The notes beneath the pieces were generated by a model. The model worked only from the letters and a program-made list of their open reading frames with translations, had not been told where the DNA came from and searched no databases. Shown in pieces: positions 49,763 through 63,659 of a stretch of 63,888 nucleotides of DNA. Source of the stretch: Natronohydrobacter sp. (GTDB taxonomy: Bacteria; Pseudomonadota; Alphaproteobacteria; Rhodobacterales; Rhodobacteraceae); the NCBI GenBank assembly GCA_020832555.1, contig JAFIEM010000008.1, positions 1 to 63,888 of the forward strand, written 5' to 3'. The position numbers and the translations under genes are program-made. Within the stretch, counting starts at the first letter, position 1, and every line of letters starts with the position of its first letter.

Positions 49763-49787
49763 GGCGCTTACAATGTGATCTCAGGGC
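49756..49787. terminator. Hairpin shared by convergent phaC and cytochrome genes
   Basis: GCCCTGAG at 49756-49763 pairs with CTCAGGGC at 49780-49787 across a 16-nt loop. It spans both stop codons. No U tract follows, so termination strength is doubtful. Confidence 0.35.
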
Positions 49788-50851
49788 CGGGAAATATGCG
49801 ATACATCCAGCCCTGTGACCCCCGCCAGATCGGCCAGACTGTCATGCAGGATCTGCAGAATGTAGCGCGGGTTATGAACATAGCCGCCGGGATCTTTCGC
49901 GGCCACCTGATAGTTATAGGCGGCTTTCAGAAGACGCGGTGTCCAACTCTGATAGCGGTTGTCGCGGATGAGCTGGTCGGGTGACAACTCGCCACTGCCG
50001 GAGGGATCGGCGAAGAAATAGGGAAAGCTGTTGGCATAGGCAATCGGCGTGCCAGCGATCTGTGCGGCATAGACACGGATGGCATCCATCAACTGGCTCT
50101 GCAAGGCAACGATCTCACTGTGAATCCCGCCCGAGCGGTCGCCAGTCCCTGCAAAATCGCGATGCTGGATGCGGATGTCGCGTAGCTCCTCCACCCCGCG
50201 ATGGCAGGCCAGACAGCCATCGGTTTCGACTGCGGTGCTGTGCGGCTCGTGGCAGGCGACGCATGTATCTGCGCCCGGCACATGCATGAAGCGCCCGGCA
50301 TAGCTGCGTCCTGCATATTGATAGCCCGGACGCGCCTCTGCCCCCAGCATCGTGGCCGCAGAGGCAGCATAGTGGATGTTCACAAAGGCCAGTTCGCCTG
50401 ATACCTCATCCTCGGCCTTGCCTACCACGCGGGTTTCGACATGATCGCTGGACTGGCGGCCCTGATGACAGACCATGCAGGTGGCCGACGACCCAAGCCC
50501 CGAAACTTCGACCCCTGACGGGAAGGTGACGGCATCCAGTGCATGCGCTTCTGCAGTGTGACAACTGGCGCAACCGATCACCGTGTTGATCGTGCCGGGG
50601 TGGTCCACCTGACCGACTGTGTGACCGCCTACCCCCAAAAAATCCAGAAAACCGGTTTCCGAATGGCACATGGCGCAGCTTTCAGGAACCGACCCCTGAT
50701 CGTTCCAATAGGTGAATGACAGCGACTGATAATTCCCGTGCGGCGACTCGAGCCATGCTGCAATCAGCCGTTCCAACCCGTCCAACCCGTCTGACCGCGC
50801 AGGCGCGGGGATGAAAAGTGCAGCGGCAAGAAGCAAGGCGAGAAAGCGCAT
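49781..50851 (-). CDS. Pentahaem c-type cytochrome, periplasmic
   Basis: 356 residues with signal peptide MRFLALLLAAALFIPAPA. Five CxxCH sites: C59-H63, C94-H98, C125-H129, C197-H201 and C213-H217; the C-terminal 130 residues have none. Many further His residues may be distal ligands. The spacing does not match NapC/NrfH or octahaem families I know, so no substrate is assigned. GGAGGACAG precedes the ATG at 50851. It is divergent from a ferric-reductase-like flavoprotein gene, which could supply or receive electrons. Confidence 0.85.
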   Translation of the reverse strand: MRFLALLLAAALFIPAPARSDGLDGLERLIAAWLESPHGNYQSLSFTYWNDQGSVPESCAMCHSETGFLDFLGVGGHTVGQVDHPGTINTVIGCASCHTAEAHALDAVTFPSGVEVSGLGSSATCMVCHQGRQSSDHVETRVVGKAEDEVSGELAFVNIHYAASAATMLGAEARPGYQYAGRSYAGRFMHVPGADTCVACHEPHSTAVETDGCLACHRGVEELRDIRIQHRDFAGTGDRSGGIHSEIVALQSQLMDAIRVYAAQIAGTPIAYANSFPYFFADPSGSGELSPDQLIRDNRYQSWTPRLLKAAYNYQVAAKDPGGYVHNPRYILQILHDSLADLAGVTGLDVSHISRP

Positions 50852-50979
50852 TCTGTCCTCCTGTTCCACTTGTCACGCTAGCAAGGCTTGCATTGAAATT
50901 CCAGAAATGCCTTGATCTGCATCATCGTACATACGACGCAACGTGACACGATGCTGGCGAGAACCGGATCACTGAAGAC

Positions 50980-52425
50980 ATGCACAACTCGCTCCGCCTC
51001 TCCGGTCTGAATGGCCCCGCGCTTGCCTGCTTGTATCTGCTGGCCGCGCTGTTTCCGCTGATGCTTGCGCGGATTCAATCCGCAGCGCCCATGGACAGGT
51101 GGGAATACGCCGCGGCCGCGATGGGCATTATCGCGCTTTGGGGCATGGCGGTGCAATTCGTCACATCCGGCCGGTTCGAGGCCGTTTCGGGTCGGCTCGG
51201 CATCGACAAGATCATGGCCTTTCACAAGCTCGCAGCACTTTGGGTGATGCTGGCGCTGGTGCTGCATCCCCTGGCCTATATTCTGCCGACTTGGCTGGAT
51301 GATCCCGATCTTGGCTGGATCAGATTACACTTCTACCTGACGGACCCTGCCTATCGCAGCGGTGTCATCAGTCTGGGCGCGCTCGCGACCCTGATCGTGA
51401 CATCCCTGCTGCTGGATCGGCTGCCATGGCCCTATGAGGCGTGGCGCGGCACGCATCTGGTGCTGGGGATGATCGCAGTGCTGTCAGGCCTGCATCATGC
51501 ATGGGCCGTGGGGCGGTTCAGCGCCGAGGGGACATTGGCGTGGTTCTGGGCTGCTGTAGGACTTGCGGTCCTGGGGGTGGTGGCCATCCTCTATGGGTGG
51601 CGCTGGTGGCTTTTGCATCGCAGACCGTGGCGGCTGGCTAGTGTTACCAAACGCGCGGATCGCATGTGGGAACTGGACATCCAGCCTGACTCCGGCACAC
51701 CGCCGATGCCTTATCATGCGGGTCAATTCGTCTGGGTGACGGAGGGCAGACGCCGCTTCCCGCTTTTCGACCACCCGTTTTCCATTGCCGACAGCCCCGG
51801 ACGCGACGGCGTGAGTTTGTTGATCAAGGAAGCGGGGGATTTCACCAACCTGATCGGAACCCTGCCCGAAGGTCGCACAATCGGAATTGACGGTCCTTAC
51901 GGTGAATTCACGTTGGAGGCGCATGGCGCTGATGCTGTCCTGCTGATCGGTGGCGGGGTCGGGATTGCACCGATCTTGGGCATCCTGCGCGATATGGTTG
52001 CGCGTGGCGACACGCGACCCGTGCGGCTGGCCTATGCGGTCGGCGCAGTGCAGAATTTCGCCTGTCTGGACGAGTTGCGTGCAGCCACTGAAACTCTCGA
52101 TTTGCAGCTCTGGCTCTTGAGTGAAGACTCACCCGACACCGCCGACATGATCAAGGGACGGCTGACGCAAGCGCATCTGTCCAAGATGCTGAATGGGCTG
52201 CCCCCTGACACAACCAAGGCCCTGATTTGCGGGCCCGGTCTGATGGTGGTCGCTGTTTCGGATATGTTGCTGGAAGTCGGTCTGCCAATGCGCAACGTCA
52301 TCTATGAACGGTTCGACTATGCTGGAGGTGGCCGCTCACGTCAGGATCATATGCGCACCGCCCGGATGCTAAGCGTCGGTGCCGTGATGTTTGCCATTGT
52401 GAGCGGTTTTGCGCTGACTATGTGA
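50980..52425 (+). CDS. Ferric-reductase-like transmembrane flavoprotein
   Basis: 481 residues. The N-terminal part has six membrane helices with haem-ligand type His pairs (MAFHKLAALW, LVLHPLAYIL; then GTHLVLGMI, SGLHHAW). The cytoplasmic part has an FAD site (FDHPFSIADSP) and an NAD(P) site (GGGVGIAPILG) with a C-terminal CGPG. It resembles ferric reductase/NADPH-oxidase-like proteins, which carry electrons from NAD(P)H across the membrane. A final hydrophobic segment (SVGAVMFAIVSGFALTM) forms an extra C-terminal helix. The divergent pentahaem cytochrome is a plausible periplasmic acceptor. Confidence 0.88.
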   Translation: MHNSLRLSGLNGPALACLYLLAALFPLMLARIQSAAPMDRWEYAAAAMGIIALWGMAVQFVTSGRFEAVSGRLGIDKIMAFHKLAALWVMLALVLHPLAYILPTWLDDPDLGWIRLHFYLTDPAYRSGVISLGALATLIVTSLLLDRLPWPYEAWRGTHLVLGMIAVLSGLHHAWAVGRFSAEGTLAWFWAAVGLAVLGVVAILYGWRWWLLHRRPWRLASVTKRADRMWELDIQPDSGTPPMPYHAGQFVWVTEGRRRFPLFDHPFSIADSPGRDGVSLLIKEAGDFTNLIGTLPEGRTIGIDGPYGEFTLEAHGADAVLLIGGGVGIAPILGILRDMVARGDTRPVRLAYAVGAVQNFACLDELRAATETLDLQLWLLSEDSPDTADMIKGRLTQAHLSKMLNGLPPDTTKALICGPGLMVVAVSDMLLEVGLPMRNVIYERFDYAGGGRSRQDHMRTARMLSVGAVMFAIVSGFALTM

Positions 52426-53487: not shown

Positions 53488-54000
53488 TCAGATCAGACTG
53501 TCGAGCAACAGGAAACCAGGTAGCCATCCGGTCAGGATGCCCGCCAGAAGGGTGACCCAGGCGGTCTGTCGCAAAATGGGCCGACCGAGAGCGAGAAGCA
53601 GGAAATACATGAACCACAAGACACCCCAGAACAGCCAGTTGGTCGCAAGCCAGATTTCAGTCGCCGAACCTGCCTCTGCGATAGCGCGCAGGAAAACCGG
53701 GACCGTGGTGATCGCCACGAACAGACTGAACCAACCCAACCCACGCCCGTCCACCTCGAGAAGGCGGTTATAAGCCACCCAGACGTAAGTCGTCGCGAAC
53801 ATCAGGGTCAATGCCGCTGCGCGAACACTTTGTTCATCCGCACCCGTGCCGAAAGCGCCCTGAATGACCACTGCCGCCGCAACCAGACCTGAGACGACAT
53901 TGATGACCACGATCTCGCGGTCCTGAATCCGGCCCATAAGCCAGAGACCATTGAGAAAAAGGACCGCACCTACATAAAATAATAGAAACCCTAGCAGCAT
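53488..54000 (-). CDS. amiS: AmiS/UreI-family amide/urea channel
   Basis: 170 residues with six or seven transmembrane helices, beginning MLLGFLLFYVGAVLFLNGLW, the family start. Members conduct urea or short-chain amides. The gene is between formamidase and fmdB, so formamide is the likely substrate. An ATG at 54015 would add five residues; I prefer 54000 because it matches the family's N-terminus and has GGAG at suitable distance. Confidence 0.9.
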   Translation of the reverse strand: MLLGFLLFYVGAVLFLNGLWLMGRIQDREIVVINVVSGLVAAAVVIQGAFGTGADEQSVRAAALTLMFATTYVWVAYNRLLEVDGRGLGWFSLFVAITTVPVFLRAIAEAGSATEIWLATNWLFWGVLWFMYFLLLALGRPILRQTAWVTLLAGILTGWLPGFLLLDSLI

Positions 54001-54055
54001 TCTCGTTGTCTCCATCTTGTCCCGCCCCGGCTTGCAGGGCGGGAGAGAAAAGGGT

Positions 54056-55282
54056 TCAGCTTGTCCGCGCTACCGAGACTTCCGGCACCGAACGCTTGGG
54101 CCCGTCACCGTTGGGACGGATGTCGAAATCGAAGATCGCTGTCGGAATCGCGAGGGTCGCGCAAGCATTGGGGATATCGACAATGCCGGCGATGCGCCCC
54201 TCGACCGGAGCTGTGCCAAGGATCATGTAGGCCTGTTCGCCCGAATACCCGAACTTCTTTAGGTACTCGATCGCATTGAGGCAGGCACGTCGATAGGCGA
54301 CGTGGGCATCAAGGTAATATTGCTCGCCGGTATGTTCGTCGACAGAGATACCCTCAAAAATCAGGTAATCGTCGAAATGTGGGTCGATCGGCGATGGGCG
54401 GAAAATCGGGTTGGTGATGGCATACTTTGACATACCGTCCTTGATGATCTCGACCTTGATATCAATCCAGCCCGCCATCTCGATAGCACCGCAGAAGGTG
54501 ATTTCACCATCACCCTGGCTGAAATGGATGTCGCCCATCGAGAGCCCGCCGCCCTTGACGTAGACGGGAAAGTACACCTTGGACCCACGCGAGAGGTTCT
54601 TGATGTCACAATTGCCACCATGTTCGCGCGCAGGGACGGTGCGCCAGGCTTCGTTGGCAGCCTTCGCGGCGGCAGAACCCGTCATTTGACCCATCAACGC
54701 AGTCGAGGGGTCGGGGGGACAGGCCAGTGGCGGAACCCGCTCCGGATCGGTTGCGATCAACGCAGCCTCGCGGCGGTTCGCTTCGGCAAGGAGCTTGTGG
54801 TCAGGCAGACATCCGATCAGGCCTGGGTGGATCAGGCCGGGATAGCGCACACCAGGGATATGACGAGAGGTTGCATAGATCCCCTCGAAGTCCCAGCAGG
54901 ACTTGACGGCTTCGGGGTAGTGTTCAGTTAGGAAACCCCCTCCATTCTCTTTGGCGAAAAGCCCGTTGAAGCCCCAGCGCGAATCGTCCTTGGCGCCAAT
55001 ATCGAGAATATCGACAACCAACAGATCGCCTGGCTCCGCCCCCTCAAAGCCGAAGGGGCCGGAGAGGTAATGCACGCGGGTCAGATCGACATCACGGATG
55101 TCGTTGGCGCTGTCGTTGTTTCCGATCTGTCCTCCGGTCCAGTCGAAGCATTCAACGCGGAGAACCTCGCCGGGCTTGAATGTCTCGACCATCGGAATGT
55201 CGGGATGCCAGCGGTTATGTGTCTTGATCGCCGCCTCCTCGGGAGCTTTGTTCAGATCGACTTCGAAGATAGTTTTCGGCAT
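54056..55282 (-). CDS. fmdA: Formamidase (acetamidase/formamidase family)
   Basis: 408 residues. It has the family's GEVLRVECFDWTGGQIGNND (first part), GPFGFEGAEPGDLLVVDI, the HPGLIGCLPDHKLL segment and KGGGLSMGDIHFSQGDGEI of the catalytic barrel. It hydrolyses formamide to formate and ammonia. GGAGG precedes the ATG at 55282. It is transcribed away from the permease-kinase sensor gene, with three dyads in the 268-nt gap. It is followed by amiS and fmdB, so import and hydrolysis are in one operon. Confidence 0.94.
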   Translation of the reverse strand: MPKTIFEVDLNKAPEEAAIKTHNRWHPDIPMVETFKPGEVLRVECFDWTGGQIGNNDSANDIRDVDLTRVHYLSGPFGFEGAEPGDLLVVDILDIGAKDDSRWGFNGLFAKENGGGFLTEHYPEAVKSCWDFEGIYATSRHIPGVRYPGLIHPGLIGCLPDHKLLAEANRREAALIATDPERVPPLACPPDPSTALMGQMTGSAAAKAANEAWRTVPAREHGGNCDIKNLSRGSKVYFPVYVKGGGLSMGDIHFSQGDGEITFCGAIEMAGWIDIKVEIIKDGMSKYAITNPIFRPSPIDPHFDDYLIFEGISVDEHTGEQYYLDAHVAYRRACLNAIEYLKKFGYSGEQAYMILGTAPVEGRIAGIVDIPNACATLAIPTAIFDFDIRPNGDGPKRSVPEVSVARTS

Positions 55283-55394
55283 GTTCTCCTCCCAGATACC
55301 AAAGTGCAGACCCAACGATGATTGTTGGCCCTGAAATAATCTGCACCGGCTCTGTAATCGGAATGCGTGCCAACGTGGCGATAAGGGTAATTTT

Positions 55395-55427
55395 TTGTAA
55401 TTCAGGAGTTACAATCAATTACATTGA
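55395..55427. promoter_or_regulatory. Two adjacent dyads between fmdA and the sensor gene
   Basis: TTGTAA-N8-TTACAA (55395-55414) is followed directly by TCAAT-TAC-ATTGA (55415-55427). They lie 113 nt from fmdA and 124 nt from the sensor start, in the most AT-rich part of the gap, so they are good candidates for the OmpR-type regulator encoded at 59260. Confidence 0.55.
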
Positions 55428-55550: not shown

Positions 55551-58169
55551 ATGACGGTTTCCGAGACCAGGCGAGACGGCTCCGGGGCGAATTTTCCCGG
55601 GCTGGAACCGGCGCCACGCAGCTATCAGTCTTGGGTTGCTGATGAAAGCATCGAGGACTACGCGCTTCGCTATGCGCCAGCCAGCCACCGGCGTTGGACG
55701 CCAGGTGTCATCACCCATACTGCGCTCGGCGGCATTTCGTTTCTTGCGCTTGAAGCGATCGGTGCGGCCCTTACGATATCCTGGGGGGTAGAGACGACCG
55801 TATTCGCGGTCCTGATTGTCTCTGTCTTTATCTTCCTGACCAGCCTTCCGATCGCTTATCACGTTGCCCGGTCGAACGTTGATCTCGACCTGCTCACGCG
55901 CGGCGCGGGTTTTGGCTATATCGGCTCAATCATTACATCGCTAATCTATACCAGCTATACAATCATCTTCTTCGCCCTCGAAGGTGTGATTATTGCTCAA
56001 GCTTTACTGATATGTTTCGGTTTGCCCCTGCCAATCGGCTATCTGCTGTCGGCGCTTGTTGTCCTACCCATCGCATCGCGCGGCATGACAGCAATCTCGC
56101 GTTTTCAGATCGTCACGCAGATCCCTTGGATTGTCCTTGCTTTGCTACCATTCTTCGTGATCGCCTGGCACGAGCCCGATGCTGTCAGCAGGTGGCTCGC
56201 CGAACCCGGACCGGAGATGACGCTTCTGTCACTGGGTGCAGCGATCGGAGTGCTTTGTGCCCTCACATTGCAGATCGGCGAGCAGGTTGACTATCTGCGT
56301 TTCCTGCCGCCACCCGAGACAACGACGCGGTTGCGTTGGTGGAGTGCGCTAATCCTGTCCGGACCAGGTTGGATCCTGATTGGCGGGGCAAAAGTCCTGA
56401 TGGGCAGCTTTCTGGCTTGGCTTGCGATCGGCAACGGCGTTGCGCCGGAATTCGCGCTCGAACCGATCGGCATGTTCTGGCATGCCTATGAATATCTGTT
56501 CGACCCGCGCGCTGCGCTGATCATCGCGACGCTCTACATCCTGATCGCGCAGATAAAGATCAATGTAACAAACGCCTATGCAGGTTCGCTTTCTCAGTCA
56601 AACTTCCTGTTGCGTATCACTCGCTATCACCCTGGCCGGTTGATCTGGCTGGTCATGCATGTCACCATCAGCTTGACACTCATGCTGATGGGCGTCTTCT
56701 CCACCCTCGAGGCAGTCCTTGCGATCTACGCCAACCTGGCGCTTGCTTGGTTGGGAGCGCTTTTTGCCGATCTTGCCATTCTAAAACCGCTTGGCTTCAG
56801 CCCGGCCCGCGTCGAGTTCCGGCGCGCTTATCTGCCAGATTTCAATCCGGTAGGGTGCGGTGGGATGGCGATCGGGGGGTTTTTCGGGCTTGCGCTTTAT
56901 CTCGGCGCGGCCGGGCCAACACTGCAAGCATGGGCTGCACCGATTGCGTTCCTTGTGTCGCTGATGGCAGCAGTATTAATCGGATTGGCGCGGCGTGGGC
57001 GCGGATATATCGCGCGCCCAGTGGACGAGCTTCTGCCTGATGAATACTGCGGTTGCGACATCTGCAGTCATCAATATGAATCTCGGGACATGGCCTACTG
57101 CACCTTCTACGAGCGGCCCATTTGTTCATTATGTTGCAGCTTGGAACCCCATTGCAGGGATTTCTGCAAACGCGCCCCGGCAAGACAGGATGACGACAAC
57201 ACGACTACGCATGGACCGCTGCTCCTGACACGAGTTGCACCGCGTCTTTGGCGGCGCATATGGCTAGCCGGGGCGGTTTTTCTGGGGCTGATGGGCCTGG
57301 CGGGATGCCTGTATCTTGTGGCACGTCAGATGAACGACTGGATTCAGAGCCCCGCCCAGACTATCGCATTCTTCCTCGGCGCCGCGCCGCTCATGGCGCT
57401 TCTGGCCCTTTGGGCCGTGCTGGCCAATGAGCGGCGGCGGCTTACCGAGGAAGATCTGCTTGATGCGCTGCGCAGGCTCGGATCGGCCCAGCGGGAACTG
57501 GCGATCCGCCAGCGACTTGCCGCCGTCGGTGAAGTCGCTGCGATGATCAGTCACGAATTGCGCAATCCCCTTGGCACGATCAGCAGCTCGGTCGAAGTGT
57601 TGTCGCGCAGCCCCGGTCTGGCCAAAGAGACCGAAGAGGATGTTCTGCGTATCCGTCGAAACATCGGTCGCTGCAGTCGGATCATCGACATCCTTCTGGA
57701 TTTCTCCCGGCAGGGAGCGCATGAAACGATTTCAGTCGACTTGAGTGAATGGCTGGCAGCTCTTGTCGATGAACATCCCGGCAAGACCGCTATTCGCCAG
57801 GAGATTGAAACGGGTATGCGCTTGCAATGCGATCCGGCACGACTGCAGTTCGCTATCCGCAACCTGATCGAGAATGCCTGTCAGGCGGCTGAGGCCGCGG
57901 TGCCGCTGGGCCGAAATCCATCCATCGTGATACGCGCCTTCCAGCAAGCGCGGCTCGTGATCATCGAGGTTGCAGACAATGGAATGGGCCTGGCGCCAGA
58001 CATCAAAGCCAGGGCCTTCGACCCGCTGGTGACAACCAAACCGTCGGGGGTAGGGCTTGGTTTGCCTCTGGTTCGACGCGTGGCCGAGATGCATGGTGGG
58101 ACTGCTTGGGTCGAGCAATCCGGGCCGTCAGGAACAGTAATGCGCCTCAGCGTCGCGCAGCCAACATGA
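55551..58169 (+). CDS. NCS1-type permease / Cys-rich linker / histidine kinase fusion sensor
   Basis: 872 residues. Residues about 35-485 look like a full NCS1 (cytosine/purine/allantoin) permease with some 12 helices: RRWTPGVITHTALGGISFLA, then LLTRGAGFGYIGSIITS and QIKINVTNAYAGSLSQSN. Residues 500-539 hold nine Cys (500, 502, 505, 517, 525, 528, 529, 535, 539), a zinc-finger-like module. Two more helices (about 570-592 and 603-625) lead to a kinase with H-box His668 (ISHELRNP), N-box (NLIENACQ), and ATP site (ADNGMGL, GVGLGLPLV). GGAGGAG precedes ATG 55551. It is divergent from the formamidase operon and coupled to the next gene. Ligand unknown; formamide, urea or a purine breakdown product are candidates. 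Confidence 0.92.
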   Translation: MTVSETRRDGSGANFPGLEPAPRSYQSWVADESIEDYALRYAPASHRRWTPGVITHTALGGISFLALEAIGAALTISWGVETTVFAVLIVSVFIFLTSLPIAYHVARSNVDLDLLTRGAGFGYIGSIITSLIYTSYTIIFFALEGVIIAQALLICFGLPLPIGYLLSALVVLPIASRGMTAISRFQIVTQIPWIVLALLPFFVIAWHEPDAVSRWLAEPGPEMTLLSLGAAIGVLCALTLQIGEQVDYLRFLPPPETTTRLRWWSALILSGPGWILIGGAKVLMGSFLAWLAIGNGVAPEFALEPIGMFWHAYEYLFDPRAALIIATLYILIAQIKINVTNAYAGSLSQSNFLLRITRYHPGRLIWLVMHVTISLTLMLMGVFSTLEAVLAIYANLALAWLGALFADLAILKPLGFSPARVEFRRAYLPDFNPVGCGGMAIGGFFGLALYLGAAGPTLQAWAAPIAFLVSLMAAVLIGLARRGRGYIARPVDELLPDEYCGCDICSHQYESRDMAYCTFYERPICSLCCSLEPHCRDFCKRAPARQDDDNTTTHGPLLLTRVAPRLWRRIWLAGAVFLGLMGLAGCLYLVARQMNDWIQSPAQTIAFFLGAAPLMALLALWAVLANERRRLTEEDLLDALRRLGSAQRELAIRQRLAAVGEVAAMISHELRNPLGTISSSVEVLSRSPGLAKETEEDVLRIRRNIGRCSRIIDILLDFSRQGAHETISVDLSEWLAALVDEHPGKTAIRQEIETGMRLQCDPARLQFAIRNLIENACQAAEAAVPLGRNPSIVIRAFQQARLVIIEVADNGMGLAPDIKARAFDPLVTTKPSGVGLGLPLVRRVAEMHGGTAWVEQSGPSGTVMRLSVAQPT

Positions 58170-59284
58170 GTGGATCACAGCCTCAGCGGAAGATCCTGAT
58201 CGTCGACGATGACGACGATTTCACGGCCGCGACGTCACGCGCAATTGCTCTTGAAGGGGTTGAGTGCATTATTGCCCGGAACGGAGCAGAGGCGATGGCA
58301 GCCGTTCAGTTCGCGGATATCGAAATTGCGTTGCTCGACATCCGCATCGGCCACGAAGACGGCACCGAACTTGCGGGCGTGCTGCGTGGTTTGCGTCCTG
58401 ATCTTGTCCTGGTTCTGATGACAGCCTATGCATCAGTCGACAGCGCCGTTGCCGCACTGAAGGTGGGCGCATACGACTATCTGCGCAAACCTTTCTTCCT
58501 TGACGAGATAATGCGCGCGCTTGAACGATGCTTCGAACTGGTGGCGCTGCGACGCGCCAAGCTTCGCGCCGAGCATGAGTTGGCGATGATCCGTCAACTT
58601 GATGCAACTTCCCAGCTTGCAGCGGGCTTGTCACATGACTTTCGGAACATGCTTGCAGTGGTTCGGGCGAATCTGGCGGTGATTCATGATGGGCTTCATG
58701 CGCGGGATGTTCTGTGGCCCTATGCTCGCGACGCGAAGGAAGCCGCAGCCACCGCAGAGGCGCTGGTTGCCCGATTGATGGACTTCACACGCGGCCCCCC
58801 CGCAGCAGAAGAGGCAATTGATTTGCGTGTGCCAGTGTCCTCGGGGATCGCCATGATGCGGAGAAGTCTTTGTGCCGGCATGGACCTGACGCTCGAATTA
58901 CCGGATTTCGCGTTGCTGGCCCCTATCAAACAGGACCAACTGGAGACCGCCATAATTAACTTGCTCATCAATTCGCGCGATGCGACCGGCGGCACCGGGC
59001 GAGCAACGGTCAGCTTGCAGCACTACTGGCGGGGCGCTGACTATGCACGACTTGTTGTTTGCGACAACGGGCCTGGTTTGGCTCCCGAGGCGCTTGAACG
59101 CGCGTTACAGGTACTTTTCACCACAAAATCGAACGGCACCGGGCTGGGGTTGCCGATGATCCGGCAGATGGCGCTTCTGGCAGGAGGCGATTTCTGGCTT
59201 GAAAATGCAGAGAACGGCGGCGCGCGCGCGGTGTTGGACCTGCCCTGCCTTTCGCCGGTTCAGGGATCGGGCAGAAACATATAG
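58166..59284 (+). CDS. Receiver-histidine kinase (RR-HK) phosphorelay protein
   Basis: 372 residues, cytoplasmic. Receiver domain at 8-125 with acidic cluster VDDDDD, phosphoacceptor Asp58 (LLDIRIG), Thr86 and Lys108 (LRKPF). A linker and a kinase core follow: His157 in GLSHDFRNML, N-box IINLLINSRDAT, CDNGPGL and NGTGLGLPM. The order receiver-then-kinase is opposite to usual hybrids and suits an intermediate between the membrane sensor and a final regulator. Its ATG overlaps the sensor stop by 4 bp, and its 3' end overlaps the convergent regulator by 25 bp. Confidence 0.9.
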   Translation: MSGSQPQRKILIVDDDDDFTAATSRAIALEGVECIIARNGAEAMAAVQFADIEIALLDIRIGHEDGTELAGVLRGLRPDLVLVLMTAYASVDSAVAALKVGAYDYLRKPFFLDEIMRALERCFELVALRRAKLRAEHELAMIRQLDATSQLAAGLSHDFRNMLAVVRANLAVIHDGLHARDVLWPYARDAKEAAATAEALVARLMDFTRGPPAAEEAIDLRVPVSSGIAMMRRSLCAGMDLTLELPDFALLAPIKQDQLETAIINLLINSRDATGGTGRATVSLQHYWRGADYARLVVCDNGPGLAPEALERALQVLFTTKSNGTGLGLPMIRQMALLAGGDFWLENAENGGARAVLDLPCLSPVQGSGRNI

Positions 59285-60054
59285 CCTGTGCCACGGATTG
59301 TTCGTATGCGGCGGAAATGTGGGCCGTGATCCCCAATCTTCCGACGGATCTTGGCGATCATCATATCTATCGATCGGTCGTAGGGCGACCAGTTCCGCCC
59401 CACAGTCAGATCGAGCAACTGATCGCGGCTGAGCACTCTGCCCGGACGTTTTGCAAGCGCGGCTAGAAGGTTGAACTCATGTGAAGATAGTAAAACATGG
59501 TTGCCATCCGTCCGGATCAGCACCTGTCTGTCGAAATCGATCTGCCAATCATCGAAGGTTATGCTGTTTGAGGTCTGAGACGTGACGCGATGCCCGACAG
59601 TATCGTGCCGAGCAGAGGGAGAGGCTGCCGATGCTGCGTCACCGATACCCTGTCGCAGGCGACGGATGACCGCACGCACCCGCGCGAGCAACTCGCGCGG
59701 TTCGAAGGGTTTGACCACGAAGTCATCGGCACCGATTTCCAGCGCGACAATCCGATCGAGCGCATCTTGGCTGGCCGATAGGAAGAGAATTCCAAGATCG
59801 GGGCCGCGCTTGAGTTCTCGGGCAAGAGAGAAGCCGTCGTCTCGACCCGGTAGACCGAGGTCAAGTACCACGACATCGAAGCGTTGCTTTGCCATCGTGT
59901 GCTGCATCGCTGCACCGTCATGTGCGACTTGGGCTACGAATCCCTGTTCAGTAAAATACCTTTGGAGAAAGTCGCTCAACCGCGTGTCATCCTCGACAAA
60001 GAGGATGTGCAGGGTTTCATCTCGCGTGCATGCTGAGTGCGCCACGCTGTTCAT
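59260..60054 (-). CDS. OmpR-type response regulator of the permease-kinase system
   Basis: 264 residues. The receiver has acidic residues in FVEDDTR, Asp65 (VVLDLGLPG) and Lys in VVKPFEP. A 40-residue linker of low complexity (about 125-160) joins a winged helix ending RTIRGTGYMFLP. It is convergent with the RR-HK gene and overlaps it by 25 bp, so the two mRNAs are antisense at their ends. It is the only DNA-binding protein in the cluster and the best candidate to regulate fmdA. The start at 60054 gives GGGGAAG upstream. Confidence 0.9.
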   Translation of the reverse strand: MNSVAHSACTRDETLHILFVEDDTRLSDFLQRYFTEQGFVAQVAHDGAAMQHTMAKQRFDVVVLDLGLPGRDDGFSLARELKRGPDLGILFLSASQDALDRIVALEIGADDFVVKPFEPRELLARVRAVIRRLRQGIGDAASAASPSARHDTVGHRVTSQTSNSITFDDWQIDFDRQVLIRTDGNHVLLSSHEFNLLAALAKRPGRVLSRDQLLDLTVGRNWSPYDRSIDMMIAKIRRKIGDHGPHFRRIRTIRGTGYMFLPDP

Positions 60055-60369
60055 TTGGAGCTTCCCCGGTCGCCGACGCGCAGGTGGACTGAGTAACACA
60101 AGCTCGAAGCATGAAGAAGTAAATTTGACTTCCGTATACCCGTGAAATGACCACAGCCCGAAGGCATCATCGCGGATGTGGCGAAAGGCCTGGCTGTCAG
60201 TCGGCAGGGGCGGAGTTTGGAGATTGCGTTGATTTGGTCATGGGCTGCTTCAGGCCGCCACACCAAGCACAGCGCTTTCTCGCCGCATCAAGGGCTGCGG
60301 GCGCATTGTGGCGCACGCATACTTTCTATAAAAGCGCGGCAATCCATTGCGCCACAGAAAGCCCTACTC
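60055..60369. other. Divergent intergenic region between the regulator and hlyD
   Basis: 315 nt without a gene I can support. It must carry the promoters of the OmpR-type gene and of the exporter operon, but I see no convincing boxes or dyads. Confidence 0.5.
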
Positions 60370-61362
60370 ATGACGTCCCCACAGGTTTCATCCCGCAAGG
60401 CCGCGCTTCCGTTTCTGGTAGTAGCACTTCTCGCAATGTCGGTTGCCGCTGCTGTCTGGTGGGTCACACGCCCTGCCGCCCTGCTGATTCAAGGCGAGGT
60501 CGCGGCCTCCCGCGTCGATATCTCCGCCCGCACCTCTGGTCGGGTGACCGAGATCGCAGCCGAGTTAGGCGGACAGGTCGAGGCCGGGCAAATATTGGCG
60601 GAACTGTCAAACCCGCAGCTTGTCACGTCCCTCGCCGCCGCAGCCTCGGGGCTCGAGGTCGCGCGCGCATCGCAAGCGGCAGCCGGGGCGACACGGCCAG
60701 AGGTGATCCGCGCCCGCGAAGCGGAACTGGCCGCGGCACAGGCTGACCTGCGACTGGCTCAGGAACAGGTGGCTCGCGACACGGAACTGGCGCAGCAAGG
60801 GCTGCGCCCGCAAGCGGTGATTGATCAGACAATGCGCAATGTCGAAACCGCTGCGCGCCGGGTTGAGGCTGCCGAGGCGCAGCTTGATCTGGCCCAGGCA
60901 GGTGCCTCGCCCGAAGAACGTGCCGTGGCCGCTGCGCAGGTCGCGCAGGCTGAAGCCGCACTGGCCCAGCGTCAGGCCGATCTGGACGAGCTGATCATTT
61001 ACGCGCCGCTGAGCGGCGAGATTTCCGCCCGCCTGATCGAGTTGGGCGAGAATGTCGGCCCCGGTGTGCCCTTGTTCACGATTGTCGATCTCGATCAGGC
61101 TTGGTTTACGTTCAATCTGCGTGAGGATTTGCTGGCAGGGCTGCAAGTTGGTGACACGCTATCGGTTCATGTGCCTGCACTGCAGCAAGACGTTGATGCC
61201 GAGATCACACTGATCAATGTGCAGGGACAGTTTGCTAGCTGGCGTGCGACACGGGCCACAGGGGATTTCGATTTGCGCAGTTTTGAGCTGCGCGCACGCC
61301 CGCTTGCACCGGTCAAGGGGCTGCGGCCCGGCATGTCGGCGCTGATCTCGCTCGGGGGCTAG
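60370..61362 (+). CDS. HlyD/EmrA-type periplasmic adaptor
   Basis: 330 residues. One N-terminal membrane anchor (AALPFLVVALLAMSVAA) precedes a split biotinyl-lipoyl domain (SGRVTEIAAELGGQVEAGQ and LIIYAPLSGEISARLIELGE) separated by an alpha-helical coiled-coil hairpin (about 95-215) rich in Ala, Gln and Glu. The adaptor links inner-membrane transporters to an outer-membrane channel. It is 3 nt upstream of two ABC-2 permease genes. A ribosome site is weak; the ATG at 60370 is the only start that places the anchor at the N-terminus. Confidence 0.88.
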   Translation: MTSPQVSSRKAALPFLVVALLAMSVAAAVWWVTRPAALLIQGEVAASRVDISARTSGRVTEIAAELGGQVEAGQILAELSNPQLVTSLAAAASGLEVARASQAAAGATRPEVIRAREAELAAAQADLRLAQEQVARDTELAQQGLRPQAVIDQTMRNVETAARRVEAAEAQLDLAQAGASPEERAVAAAQVAQAEAALAQRQADLDELIIYAPLSGEISARLIELGENVGPGVPLFTIVDLDQAWFTFNLREDLLAGLQVGDTLSVHVPALQQDVDAEITLINVQGQFASWRATRATGDFDLRSFELRARPLAPVKGLRPGMSALISLGG

Positions 61363-61365
61363 GAC

Positions 61366-62520
61366 ATGCTGGCAGTGATGGCGCGCGAATTCCGGCTGAT
61401 CTTGCGCCGCCCGGCCCTGTTTGGGCTGGTAATCGTGCTGCCTGTCCTCATGCTGCTCGCTCTGGCGGGTATTTTCCGCGCAGGCATTCCCACCGGCATG
61501 GCCGTGACGGTGGTCGATCTTGATCGTTCGGATCTGTCGCGCAGCATCACCCGGATGCTGGATGCCGCCCCTGAAATCACAGTAGCGGAACAGGCCCTGA
61601 GCCTGAGCGAGGCCCGCGCGCAGATCGTGGCCGGTCATGTACGTGGCGCCGTCTATCTGCCGCAAGGGCTGGAACGCGACATCAACCGGGGCGCACGCCC
61701 GGAGATCGTGATCTTCTACGACAACCAGCACATGAGCGCGGGCTCCATGGTCGCGCGGGGCGCGCGCGGGGCCATTGATACAGCGCTGGCCGGTCTGCGC
61801 CTGTCTATCCGCCAAGGTCAGGGCGAAGCGCCTGTTCAGGCGACGGTCAGCATCCAGCCGATACCCTTGCAGGCCCATGCGCTGTTCAACCCGGCCTTTG
61901 ATTATGTGCATTTTCTGCTCGCGGCGCTGGTGCCCACAGTGCTTCAAATCATCGCGGCTGCTGCGACCGCTTATGCGATTTCGCTGGATTTCGGACCGGG
62001 GCGGCACCCGGAGGTTCTTGCGCGTATGGCGGGCGGGGTGTTGCCCGCAATGCTCGGCAAGATCCTGCCCTACACGGCGATTTTTCTGATCATCCTCGGG
62101 CTGTCGGATATCGCACTGTATGGCTGGCTGGGCGTGCCTTTGCGCGGGTCACTGTTTCTCATGGCAACAGGCGCCGTGCTGTTTGTGCTTGGCGTGCAAT
62201 TGATCGGCGCTGCGGCTTTCGTGCTGACCCGCGACATGGGTCGGGCAGCCAGTATCATCGCGGTGATCACGGCCCCGGCTTTCGGCTTCATGGGCCTTGG
62301 TTTTCCGCGCGAGGCCATGTCGCAGCTGGCCCAAGCCTGGGGGGCGCTAATCCCCGGAACATGGTATGTGCAACTGCGTATCGACCAGTCCTTGCGCGAG
62401 ACACCGCTCGATATCTCGGTCTGGTCGGTGGTCTGGCTGGCCTGCATTGCTTTTTCGCTGGGCGCTTTGGTGCTGCTGCGGCTGATACGTCTGCGCCGCC
62501 AGATCGAGGCCGCAACATGA
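61366..62520 (+). CDS. ABC-2 type exporter permease (first of two)
   Basis: 384 residues of the YhhJ/YbhR-like class: one N-terminal helix (LFGLVIVLPVLMLLALAGIF), a large extracytoplasmic domain (VTVVDLDRSDLSRSI), then five C-terminal helices with FPREAMSQLAQAWGALIPGTW, the family's conserved segment. It overlaps the second permease by 4 bp. The ATP-binding subunit usual for this class is not encoded here. Confidence 0.88.
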   Translation: MLAVMAREFRLILRRPALFGLVIVLPVLMLLALAGIFRAGIPTGMAVTVVDLDRSDLSRSITRMLDAAPEITVAEQALSLSEARAQIVAGHVRGAVYLPQGLERDINRGARPEIVIFYDNQHMSAGSMVARGARGAIDTALAGLRLSIRQGQGEAPVQATVSIQPIPLQAHALFNPAFDYVHFLLAALVPTVLQIIAAAATAYAISLDFGPGRHPEVLARMAGGVLPAMLGKILPYTAIFLIILGLSDIALYGWLGVPLRGSLFLMATGAVLFVLGVQLIGAAAFVLTRDMGRAASIIAVITAPAFGFMGLGFPREAMSQLAQAWGALIPGTWYVQLRIDQSLRETPLDISVWSVVWLACIAFSLGALVLLRLIRLRRQIEAAT

Positions 62521-63659
62521 GCGATATCCTGAATGCCCTGCGCGCGGAGTTGCGCTGTATCCTTACGGATCGTCAGGTGCGGCTGATCATTCTGGCTGCA
62601 CTGGTGATCTATGCGCTGGTCTATCCCTTTCCCTACCGGGCCGAGCTGTTGCGCGATGTGCCGGTTGTGCTGGTCGATCTGGACCGTTCCACCAGTTCGG
62701 CAGAGCTCGCGCGACGCGTCAATGCGTCCGAGGCCGTGATGCTGAGCCATGACGCACCCGACATGATCACGGCTACGCGTCTGGTTCAGGAGCGCCGTGC
62801 CTATGGCGTGCTGCTGATCCCCGAAGGCTTCGAGCGCGCGCTGTTGCGCGGCAGCCAAAGCCCTGTCGCCCTTTATGCCGATGCCAGCTATTTCCTGATG
62901 TATCAGCGCGTCATGCAAGGTGCCGCCATTCCACTTCGCCAGATGGGGGCCGAGGTCGAGATGGGCCGCCTGATCGCGCAAGGCACCGCGCCCGATGTGG
63001 CGCTGGCTCAGGTCAGCCCTGCTTCACAGATCGAAGTGCCATTGTTCAACCCGGCGGCCGGCTACGCGACCTATGTGTTGCCCGCCGCCTTCGTGCTGAT
63101 CCTGCAGCAGACCATGCTGATGGGGCTGGCCCTTGTCGCAACGCGGCGGGGTCCTGTGCCGGGCCATCCGGTCTGGCGGATTCTGGGGCGCATGGGCGCT
63201 TGGGTGGCAATTTATGCGCTGCTGCTGCCGCTCTATCTGGTTGTCTTACCCGCAGTTTACGGCCTGCCCAATCTGGGCAATGTGACGGCTGTGCTGATGC
63301 TGGGCCTACCCTTCGTGCTGGCAACCGGCTTGCTGGCGCAATGCGTCGCGGCCCTGTTCCGGCGCGGTGAGGTGGTCCAAGTGGTACTATTGGCGGTGGG
63401 ACTGCCCTTTTTCTTCCTCTCGGGCTTTGCCTGGCCGGTCGAAGCTATCCCAGTGCATCTGAACTGGATCGCACAGATCATCCCATCGACGGCGGCCATA
63501 GATGGGCTTGTGCGCGCCAGCCAGATGGGCGCGACTTTCTCCGAAATTGGACACCGCCTCTGGCATCTCTGGGGTCTGGTAGGCGCTTTTGCGACTGTTG
63601 CGATTGCTCTCGAGGTTTTGACGCACTCCTCTGGGCACTCGGATCATCAGGACAGGTAA
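62517..63659 (+). CDS. ABC-2 type exporter permease (second of two)
   Basis: 380 residues with the same topology: first helix LIILAALVIYALVYPF, extracytoplasmic VPVVLVDLDRSTSSAEL, and C-terminal helices including FFLSGFAWPVEAIP. It is coupled to the first permease through ATGA and presumably forms a heterodimer with it. The 229 nt after it to the window end hold no gene I can support. Confidence 0.88.
   Translation: MSDILNALRAELRCILTDRQVRLIILAALVIYALVYPFPYRAELLRDVPVVLVDLDRSTSSAELARRVNASEAVMLSHDAPDMITATRLVQERRAYGVLLIPEGFERALLRGSQSPVALYADASYFLMYQRVMQGAAIPLRQMGAEVEMGRLIAQGTAPDVALAQVSPASQIEVPLFNPAAGYATYVLPAAFVLILQQTMLMGLALVATRRGPVPGHPVWRILGRMGAWVAIYALLLPLYLVVLPAVYGLPNLGNVTAVLMLGLPFVLATGLLAQCVAALFRRGEVVQVVLLAVGLPFFFLSGFAWPVEAIPVHLNWIAQIIPSTAAIDGLVRASQMGATFSEIGHRLWHLWGLVGAFATVAIALEVLTHSSGHSDHQDR

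Follow-up and report, generated by a model that had tools for sequence, protein, structure and literature searches.

What does a protein sense when a complete transporter-like membrane domain is joined to a histidine kinase, and which genes does it control? This question is raised by a 63,888-nucleotide stretch of DNA from Natronohydrobacter sp. (GenBank assembly GCA_020832555.1, contig JAFIEM010000008.1, positions 1 to 63,888 of the forward strand; "the window" denotes this whole stretch), in which an 872-residue permease-type sensor kinase, P0001, is encoded divergently to a formamidase. We consider it likely that this sensor is a transceptor for urea and for formamide and other short amides, which would switch on their uptake and hydrolysis. 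The family to which it belongs is large and widespread; beyond what a first-pass annotation of the window had foreseen, its genes are linked to urea-ABC operons as well, there with another kind of regulator, and cyclic di-GMP (c-di-GMP) domains occur in some members.

Architecture and distribution of the sensor

The sensor gene and its parts are as follows.

55551–58169, plus strand: permease-type sensor histidine kinase P0001, 872 aa (single open frame; HisKA and HATPase_c by Pfam)
55653–57005, plus strand: NCS1-type permease domain, residues ~35–485 (homology to the stand-alone permease L129, Foldseek, hhalign)
56547–56603, plus strand: signature of transmembrane helix 8 (TM8), A333-Q-I-K336-I337-N338-V-T-N341-A-Y-A-G-S..N351 (Mhp1/CodB alignment)
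57048–57173, plus strand: Cys-rich linker with eight invariant Cys (conservation in 127/127 rows)
57246–57425, plus strand: two extra helices, residues ~566–625, probably in the membrane (AlphaFold2 model)
57528–57716, plus strand: HisKA with H668, residues 660–722 (Pfam, conservation)
57831–58154, plus strand: HATPase_c, residues 761–868 (Pfam)

The frame at 55551–58169 (plus strand) runs through 872 codons with no interruption. The first-pass annotation had described a single frame with a Cys-rich linker, two extra helices and a kinase core with His668, and the frame itself, Pfam and AlphaFold2 confirm this layout. HisKA and HATPase_c, for which it had proposed a domain search, were both found, with the phospho-acceptor His of the former and the N, D and G boxes of the latter; H668 and the N/D/G-box residues are at least 90% conserved in the 22 aligned sensor proteins used for conservation (a larger set comprises 127 sensor rows, the window included). 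The Pfam scan gave no domain match within the first 650 residues. In the AlphaFold2 models, a helix is broken near residues 60–63, twelve membrane helices were counted, and the permease is followed by helices at 566–594 and from 601 onward.

The source genome is a draft in 238 contigs (86% complete, 3.5% contaminated), and an artificial fusion created by a frameshift or misassembly was therefore considered. A scan of 84,980 species genomes gave at least 588 relatives among at least 591 pattern-matched stretches, of which 80 were retained for analysis; the locus set numbers 82 (window locus L002, same-genus L003, and L004–L083). Because the permease and linker share one open frame in all 82 loci, 80 of them from named records spanning at least four phyla, this explanation is refuted and has a negligible probability, as has the joining of two genes by a sequencing error, which the first-pass annotation had named as fatal to its own proposal. 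The fusion is genuine and old.

The hosts of the relatives are alpha-, beta- and gammaproteobacteria, cyanobacteria and Campylobacterota, with a single bin of Neomarinimicrobiota, and the closest among the matches listed are three Paracoccus proteins and one from another Rhodobacteraceae bacterium (74–79% identity). In a sample of 397 Pseudomonadota genomes, chosen independently of the sensor except for the window's own genome, 67 have a profile match and 65 were counted as sensor carriers. One genome assigned to the window's class has a locus 97% identical to that of Bradyrhizobium valentinum, which identifies the sampled phylum as Pseudomonadota. Among 60 genomes near that of the window (own included), only two carry the sensor, the second being a congener whose copy is 49% identical; it is therefore accessory among near relatives. 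The sensor is also common plasmid cargo: of 72,556 plasmid records searched, 527 contain a match, 342 of them from Klebsiella. Plasmid NZ_CP093272.1 of Klebsiella oxytoca (L085), for example, bears the sensor with urtA–E and formamidase, near an arsenic operon.

Most of the listed matches bearing a name are annotated merely as "ATP-binding protein", and the family is apparently undescribed. Synechocystis Hik16 may be a member. The accessible part of PMC3264485 gives the membrane location of Hik16 and no domain layout. No description of an NCS1–kinase sensor was found in the open-licence PubMed Central literature, a search that most subscription papers lie outside. The word NCS1 is absent from the SSS review PMC7918813, and in the accessible part of PMC8399564 it appears as a thesis title in the reference list.

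The linker cysteines C502, C505, C517, C525, C528, C529, C535 and C539 are kept in 127/127 sensor rows and probably form two zinc sites. When the linker profile was run against 249 genomes, all 42 matches fell inside sensor genes; the Cys-rich piece is specific to this family. Such invariance and restriction would suit a linker that is itself the true sensor (of redox state, zinc or nitrosative stress), with the permease as a mere membrane scaffold. Yet the permease has 99 invariant positions in the 22 sensors, and the recurrent gene partners are amide and urea genes, so that we regard this alternative as improbable and retain the permease of the proposed transceptor as the ligand-binding part.

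The domains behind the linker vary. A single-sequence search of the 82 members identified 36 with a kinase and a receiver, 37 with a kinase and no detected receiver, and nine with no kinase. Pfam was applied to ten C-termini, namely those of eight of the nine kinase-less members and of two kinases (L017 and L054). All eight kinase-less members scanned have a GGDEF output, six of them with EAL, and the ninth (L079) runs off its contig. The outputs seen behind the permease and Cys module thus comprise kinase, hybrid kinase, PAS-kinase, GGDEF and GGDEF-EAL. This variation argues that the permease and Cys part is the input device, whose signal may feed c-di-GMP in the GGDEF/EAL members. The GGDEF or (PAS/GAF-)GGDEF-EAL fusions are L040, L050, L059, L067, L077, L078, L081 and L083, and their hosts are Campylobacterota and methanotroph bins and single-cell genomes. 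A hybrid kinase without a permease, L130:4857–6713, matches the linker–helix part of the sensor profile (E = 1e-7) and is perhaps a sensor that lost its permease.

NCS1 kinship and the pocket of the permease domain

The first-pass annotation had named the lack of an NCS1 profile match to residues 35–485 as a refutation of its proposal. Pfam PF02133 (Transp_cyt_pur) indeed gave no such match: the protein encoded in the window has none at E ≤ 0.1, and none of the 22 aligned sensor N-termini has one at E ≤ 1. The NCS1 nature of the permease is nevertheless borne out by a bridging homologue, profile comparison and fold. The bridge is L129, a stand-alone 497-aa permease that matches PF02133 above the cut-off (E = 3.6e-9) and shares 28% identity with the window permease across 481 aa (E = 4e-34). 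In hhalign comparisons with 14 NCS1 or NCS1-like proteins and 10 SSS proteins, the sensor family profile reached a probability of at least 87% for 11 of the 14, vs at most 0.6% for 10/10 SSS proteins. The AlphaFold2 model of the permease and linker has a mean predicted local distance difference test score of 78.9 and a predicted template modelling score of 0.80. When it was searched with Foldseek, PDB ranks 1–5 were CodB and Mhp1 (CodB: E = 4e-7, template modelling score 0.77 by target), with a sialic-acid symporter and amino-acid transporters ranking below them. On this evidence, the domain is an NCS1-type permease with a predicted LeuT-like fold, despite the Pfam miss. An SLC5/SSS identity was ruled out by the lack of a PF00474 match, the Foldseek ranking and the hhalign values.

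Several results weigh against this assignment. Besides the missing PF02133 match, NCBIfam as well as Pfam does not assign the window permease to NCS1. Only nine of the 14 comparison proteins reach the Pfam NCS1 cut-off, and three of these nine score lower in hhalign (L001, 32%; L177, 8%; L092, whose sequence is shortened, 0.4%), leaving six at 87% or more. The comparison set is also biased, since a search with L129 supplied 11 of its 14 proteins and L129 is itself among the other three; the hhalign result therefore shows kinship, at the level of sequence profiles, to one NCS1 branch and not to the whole NCS1 family. 

A sensor-only profile found no permease among the PDB sequences. When sensors and NCS1 relatives were combined in one profile, it matched CodB (8e-45) and Mhp1 (4e-22), but this profile includes NCS1 members and serves for alignment, not as independent proof of kinship.

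In the alignment to Mhp1, E144 falls at Gln121, N341 at Asn318, and K336/I337 at Ser312/Thr313, which we take to be pocket and sodium-site residues of Mhp1. The first-pass annotation asked whether the substrate and sodium sites are kept. The pocket positions E144 and N341 do align, while the TM8 sodium-site hydroxyls are not kept: Mhp1 S312/T313 are replaced by K336/I337 in 127/127 rows. E144, K336, I337, N338 and N341 are kept throughout the same 127 rows. L129 has Arg at the K336 position, so that a basic residue there is common to the sensors and to its NCS1 branch. Not all NCS1 transporters are sodium-coupled. E68, D111, D113, E244, Q245 and the eight linker Cys are invariant in the sensors and absent from L129.

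These residues bear on whether the permease is a working importer of amide or urea, with turnover, not mere binding, being sensed. The LeuT-fold core and the polar pocket would suit such a role, as would proton coupling by the invariant Lys at the sodium-ligand position, which has been proposed for CbrA K196. According to PMC13022988, CbrA transports histidine, and K196 is a lysine occupying the Na2 site that has been proposed to couple proton and transport. Turnover sensing is one possibility discussed for histidine and CbrA. On the other hand, UrtA–E and AmiS are encoded next door in many loci, making import by the sensor unneeded there, and the five acidic or Gln residues found only in the sensors hint at a changed task compared with the stand-alone permease. 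We judge turnover sensing unlikely, although less so than the other alternatives, and prefer a transceptor that would bind, and perhaps transport, its ligand. If K336 acts like CbrA K196, two transceptor kinase families may have reached the same kind of change.

In what looks like an operon (L129:5949–10370), the L129 permease gene precedes those of a nitrilase-type hydrolase (two CN_hydrolase stretches) and of an AmiC/UrtA-like binding protein. The permease is a likely amide or nitrile transporter.

Neighbouring genes, regulators and promoter repeats

The features around the sensor gene are as follows.

54056–55282, minus strand: formamidase FmdA, divergent (NCBIfam NF045496 equivalog, 746 bits, cut-off 500)
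53488–54015, minus strand: AmiS/UreI-type amide/urea channel (PF02293, E = 4e-57)
58166–59284, plus strand: receiver-HisKA-HATPase protein, start overlapping the sensor stop (ATGA) (Pfam)
59260–60099, minus strand: OmpR/PhoB-type response regulator, convergent (Pfam Response_reg and Trans_reg_C)
55409–55423, plus strand: TTACA-N5-TTACA direct repeat with a 10-bp period, the window's only exact copy, candidate operator
55386–55400, minus strand: second copy of TTACA-N5-TTACA with one mismatch, facing fmdA, at the position of the relatives' exact repeat

The survey of architecture and neighbours proposed in the first-pass annotation gave a fused protein in every one of the 82 loci and an FmdA, FmdB, Urt or AmiS neighbour in 51 of them, which represent 15 of 22 clusters at 72% identity. 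Formamidase is present in 44 of the 397 genomes, and 43 of these 44 also encode the sensor (sensor × formamidase table 43/22/1/331; Fisher p = 6e-40 without phylogenetic correction). All 41 genomes with a UrtA at least 69% identical to Chelatococcus UrtA carry both the sensor and formamidase. Out of 71 sensor genes, 43 are located within 15 kb of fmdA, at least 53 within that distance of urtA, and at least 56 of either. Nine sensors whose genomes lack this formamidase are 0.25–7 kb from an ordinary UrtA (40–42% identity), and a further four sensors are 4–12 kb from a UrtA at 46% identity; this proximity points to urea as a ligand. The UrtA proteins in the 397 genomes comprise a kind with 69–93% identity to the Chelatococcus protein, the ordinary kind with 40–46%, and two rows at 60%. 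Amides, and not urea, may be the substrates of the 69–93% kind.

Each of the eight annotated plasmid regions examined, drawn from the 527 records, contains amide or urea genes: formamidase and AmiS in Paracoccus TOH; urtA–E and formamidase in Klebsiella oxytoca, Chelatococcus, Burkholderia vietnamiensis and Paraburkholderia; urt genes and a urease accessory gene in Methylosinus; and urtA–E in Sinorhizobium pSymB and Thioclava. The same regions bear on a ligand of the classical NCS1 kind (cytosine, hydantoin, allantoin or purine), whose breakdown gives urea or formamide. CodB and Mhp1 are the closest solved folds, and such compounds contain a ureido group. No nucleobase or hydantoin catabolism gene is present by name in the eight annotated neighbourhoods, though, and it is urt, fmdA and amiS that recur. 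We thus give a classical substrate little chance, slightly less than a sensing linker, and keep urea and short amides as the probable ligands of the transceptor.

Three points count against this choice of ligand. It is inferred from the neighbouring genes and not from an experiment; the linkage counts across genomes are taken without phylogenetic correction; and 31 of the 82 loci, mainly cyanobacterial, campylobacterial and sulfur-bacterial, show neither urea nor amide genes in the flanking DNA retrieved, which is short in several cases. For the cyanobacterial and campylobacterial members, a comparison of gene neighbours gave shared pairs only between near relatives.

The overlapping receiver-kinase and the OmpR-type protein are candidate partners in the window. 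The HisKA of the former scores 25.0 bits, just below the Pfam cut-off of 26.9, and the true start of the latter is probably inside the ORF 59260–60099. A receiver-kinase homologue is found behind or near the sensor in nine fetched loci besides the window, and the same nine have a homologue of the OmpR-type regulator. In Paracoccus denitrificans (L006), a 75%-identical sensor has fmdA, amiS and both regulator genes as neighbours. One repeat, TTACA-N5-TTACA, is common to the intergenic DNA between fmdA and the sensor gene in the window and in five close relatives. A previous guess, TGTAA-N6-TGTAA, was wrong; several spacings were tried together, and only the 10-bp period matched. Each of 11 relative loci has a single exact copy of the repeat (11 matches in 320,168 strand-bases), always 110–175 bp upstream of fmdA. 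Six of the 11 are independent of the discovery, and in these fmdA is downstream of the sensor, away from the sensor promoter. One further locus, L148, has no fmdA within its stretch. A direct repeat with a 10-bp period would be a fitting site for a regulator of the OmpR type.

In the urt clade, the regulator is LuxR-type in 3/3 tested, and TTACA-N5-TTACA is absent from 14 intergenic regions of this clade. Spaced-word enumeration in these 14 regions yielded an 18-bp palindrome, ATACGTCA-NN-TGACGTAT, as the candidate site of the LuxR-type regulator. With up to three mismatches, it has 22 matches in 17,475 bp of urtA–sensor intergenic DNA from 41 loci (for example, L068:5853), with no match in the remaining 552,014 bp of those loci. 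Five loci have another gene arrangement: L056 has a perfect copy one gene away (L056:4797), L090 a three-mismatch match, L066 a one-mismatch copy immediately in front of the sensor and another farther along, and L087 and L091 no copy.

Both motifs have features that weaken the regulatory reading. Compared with its relatives, the window has its exact repeat on the opposite strand, and the copy facing fmdA has one mismatch. The palindrome, with up to three mismatches, is present in only 16 of 41 divergent urt loci (10 of 12 discovery loci and 6 of 29 others). The original proposal, in which the sensor reads out a small nitrogen compound and targets the divergent formamidase operon, nevertheless has strong support from the conserved neighbourhood and the operator-like repeats.

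We propose a signalling pathway based on these data. The LeuT-fold NCS1 permease domain would bind, and perhaps transport, urea or a short amide. The resulting conformational change would pass through the 8-Cys, probably zinc-binding, knuckle and the two helices to the kinase, which would autophosphorylate at His668. In the window, phosphate may be transferred to the overlapping receiver-kinase protein and/or the adjacent OmpR-type regulator, which would bind TTACA-N5-TTACA in the fmdA/sensor promoter and induce formamidase and AmiS. The sister clade would instead use a LuxR-type regulator, bound to the palindrome before the urea-ABC-transporter operons.

Two gene groups farther out in the window were read by eye: a cytochrome-like gene rich in CXXCH motifs with an adjacent gene for a ferric-reductase-like membrane flavoprotein (49781–52425), and an HlyD-type gene with two ABC-2-type permease genes (60178–63659).

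Comparison with known systems

Many bacteria use urea and formamide as nitrogen sources; as far as we know, the bacterial sensing of external urea is poorly understood. The sensor family is a concrete candidate for urea and amide sensing, with a predicted ligand class, regulators and operators. The enzymes and transporters of the formamide and short-amide systems (FmdA combined either with AmiS or with urt-type ABC transporters) adjoin the sensor, and no sensor with this architecture is known to us for such systems.

CodB, Mhp1 and L129 have a homologous permease fold and the same pocket positions in TM3 and TM8. The sensor differs from them in its fused signalling domains, in K336/I337 replacing the TM8 sodium-ligand hydroxyls, and in its sensor-only invariant residues.

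In CbrA and CrbS/MxtR (SLC5-STAC kinases), as in the sensor, a whole LeuT-fold transporter is fused to a histidine kinase in a nutrient-linked system. A lysine in a sodium site is a further common feature: K196 in CbrA and, by the alignment to Mhp1, K336 in the sensor. CrbS/R likewise combines a LuxR-type regulator with an inverted-repeat motif, according to PMC5715377. The transporter of CbrA and CrbS is SLC5, whereas that of the sensor is NCS1-like. At the place that STAC takes in CbrA, the sensor has the 8-Cys knuckle and two helices; its Pfam scan gave no STAC match where the knuckle lies, the presence of a STAC model in the library being unchecked. The partners of the sensor are amide and urea genes, and some members have GGDEF/EAL outputs, again unlike the CbrA type.

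We somewhat favour the broader view that the family represents a second, independent class of transporter-receptors: NCS1 transceptors with their own Cys-knuckle coupling, kinase or c-di-GMP outputs, direct urea and short-amide sensing, and a CbrA-like lysine replacing a sodium-site ligand, present in about one-sixth of the 397 Pseudomonadota genomes and in cyanobacteria and Campylobacterota. The question left open for CbrA, whether binding or transport drives the kinase, could also be addressed with this second, different transporter family, and the 8-Cys linker is a compact coupling domain open to testing. Because its permease is not an SLC5/SSS transporter, the sensor should not be filed with the SLC5/STAC kinases, though it works like CbrA and CrbS.

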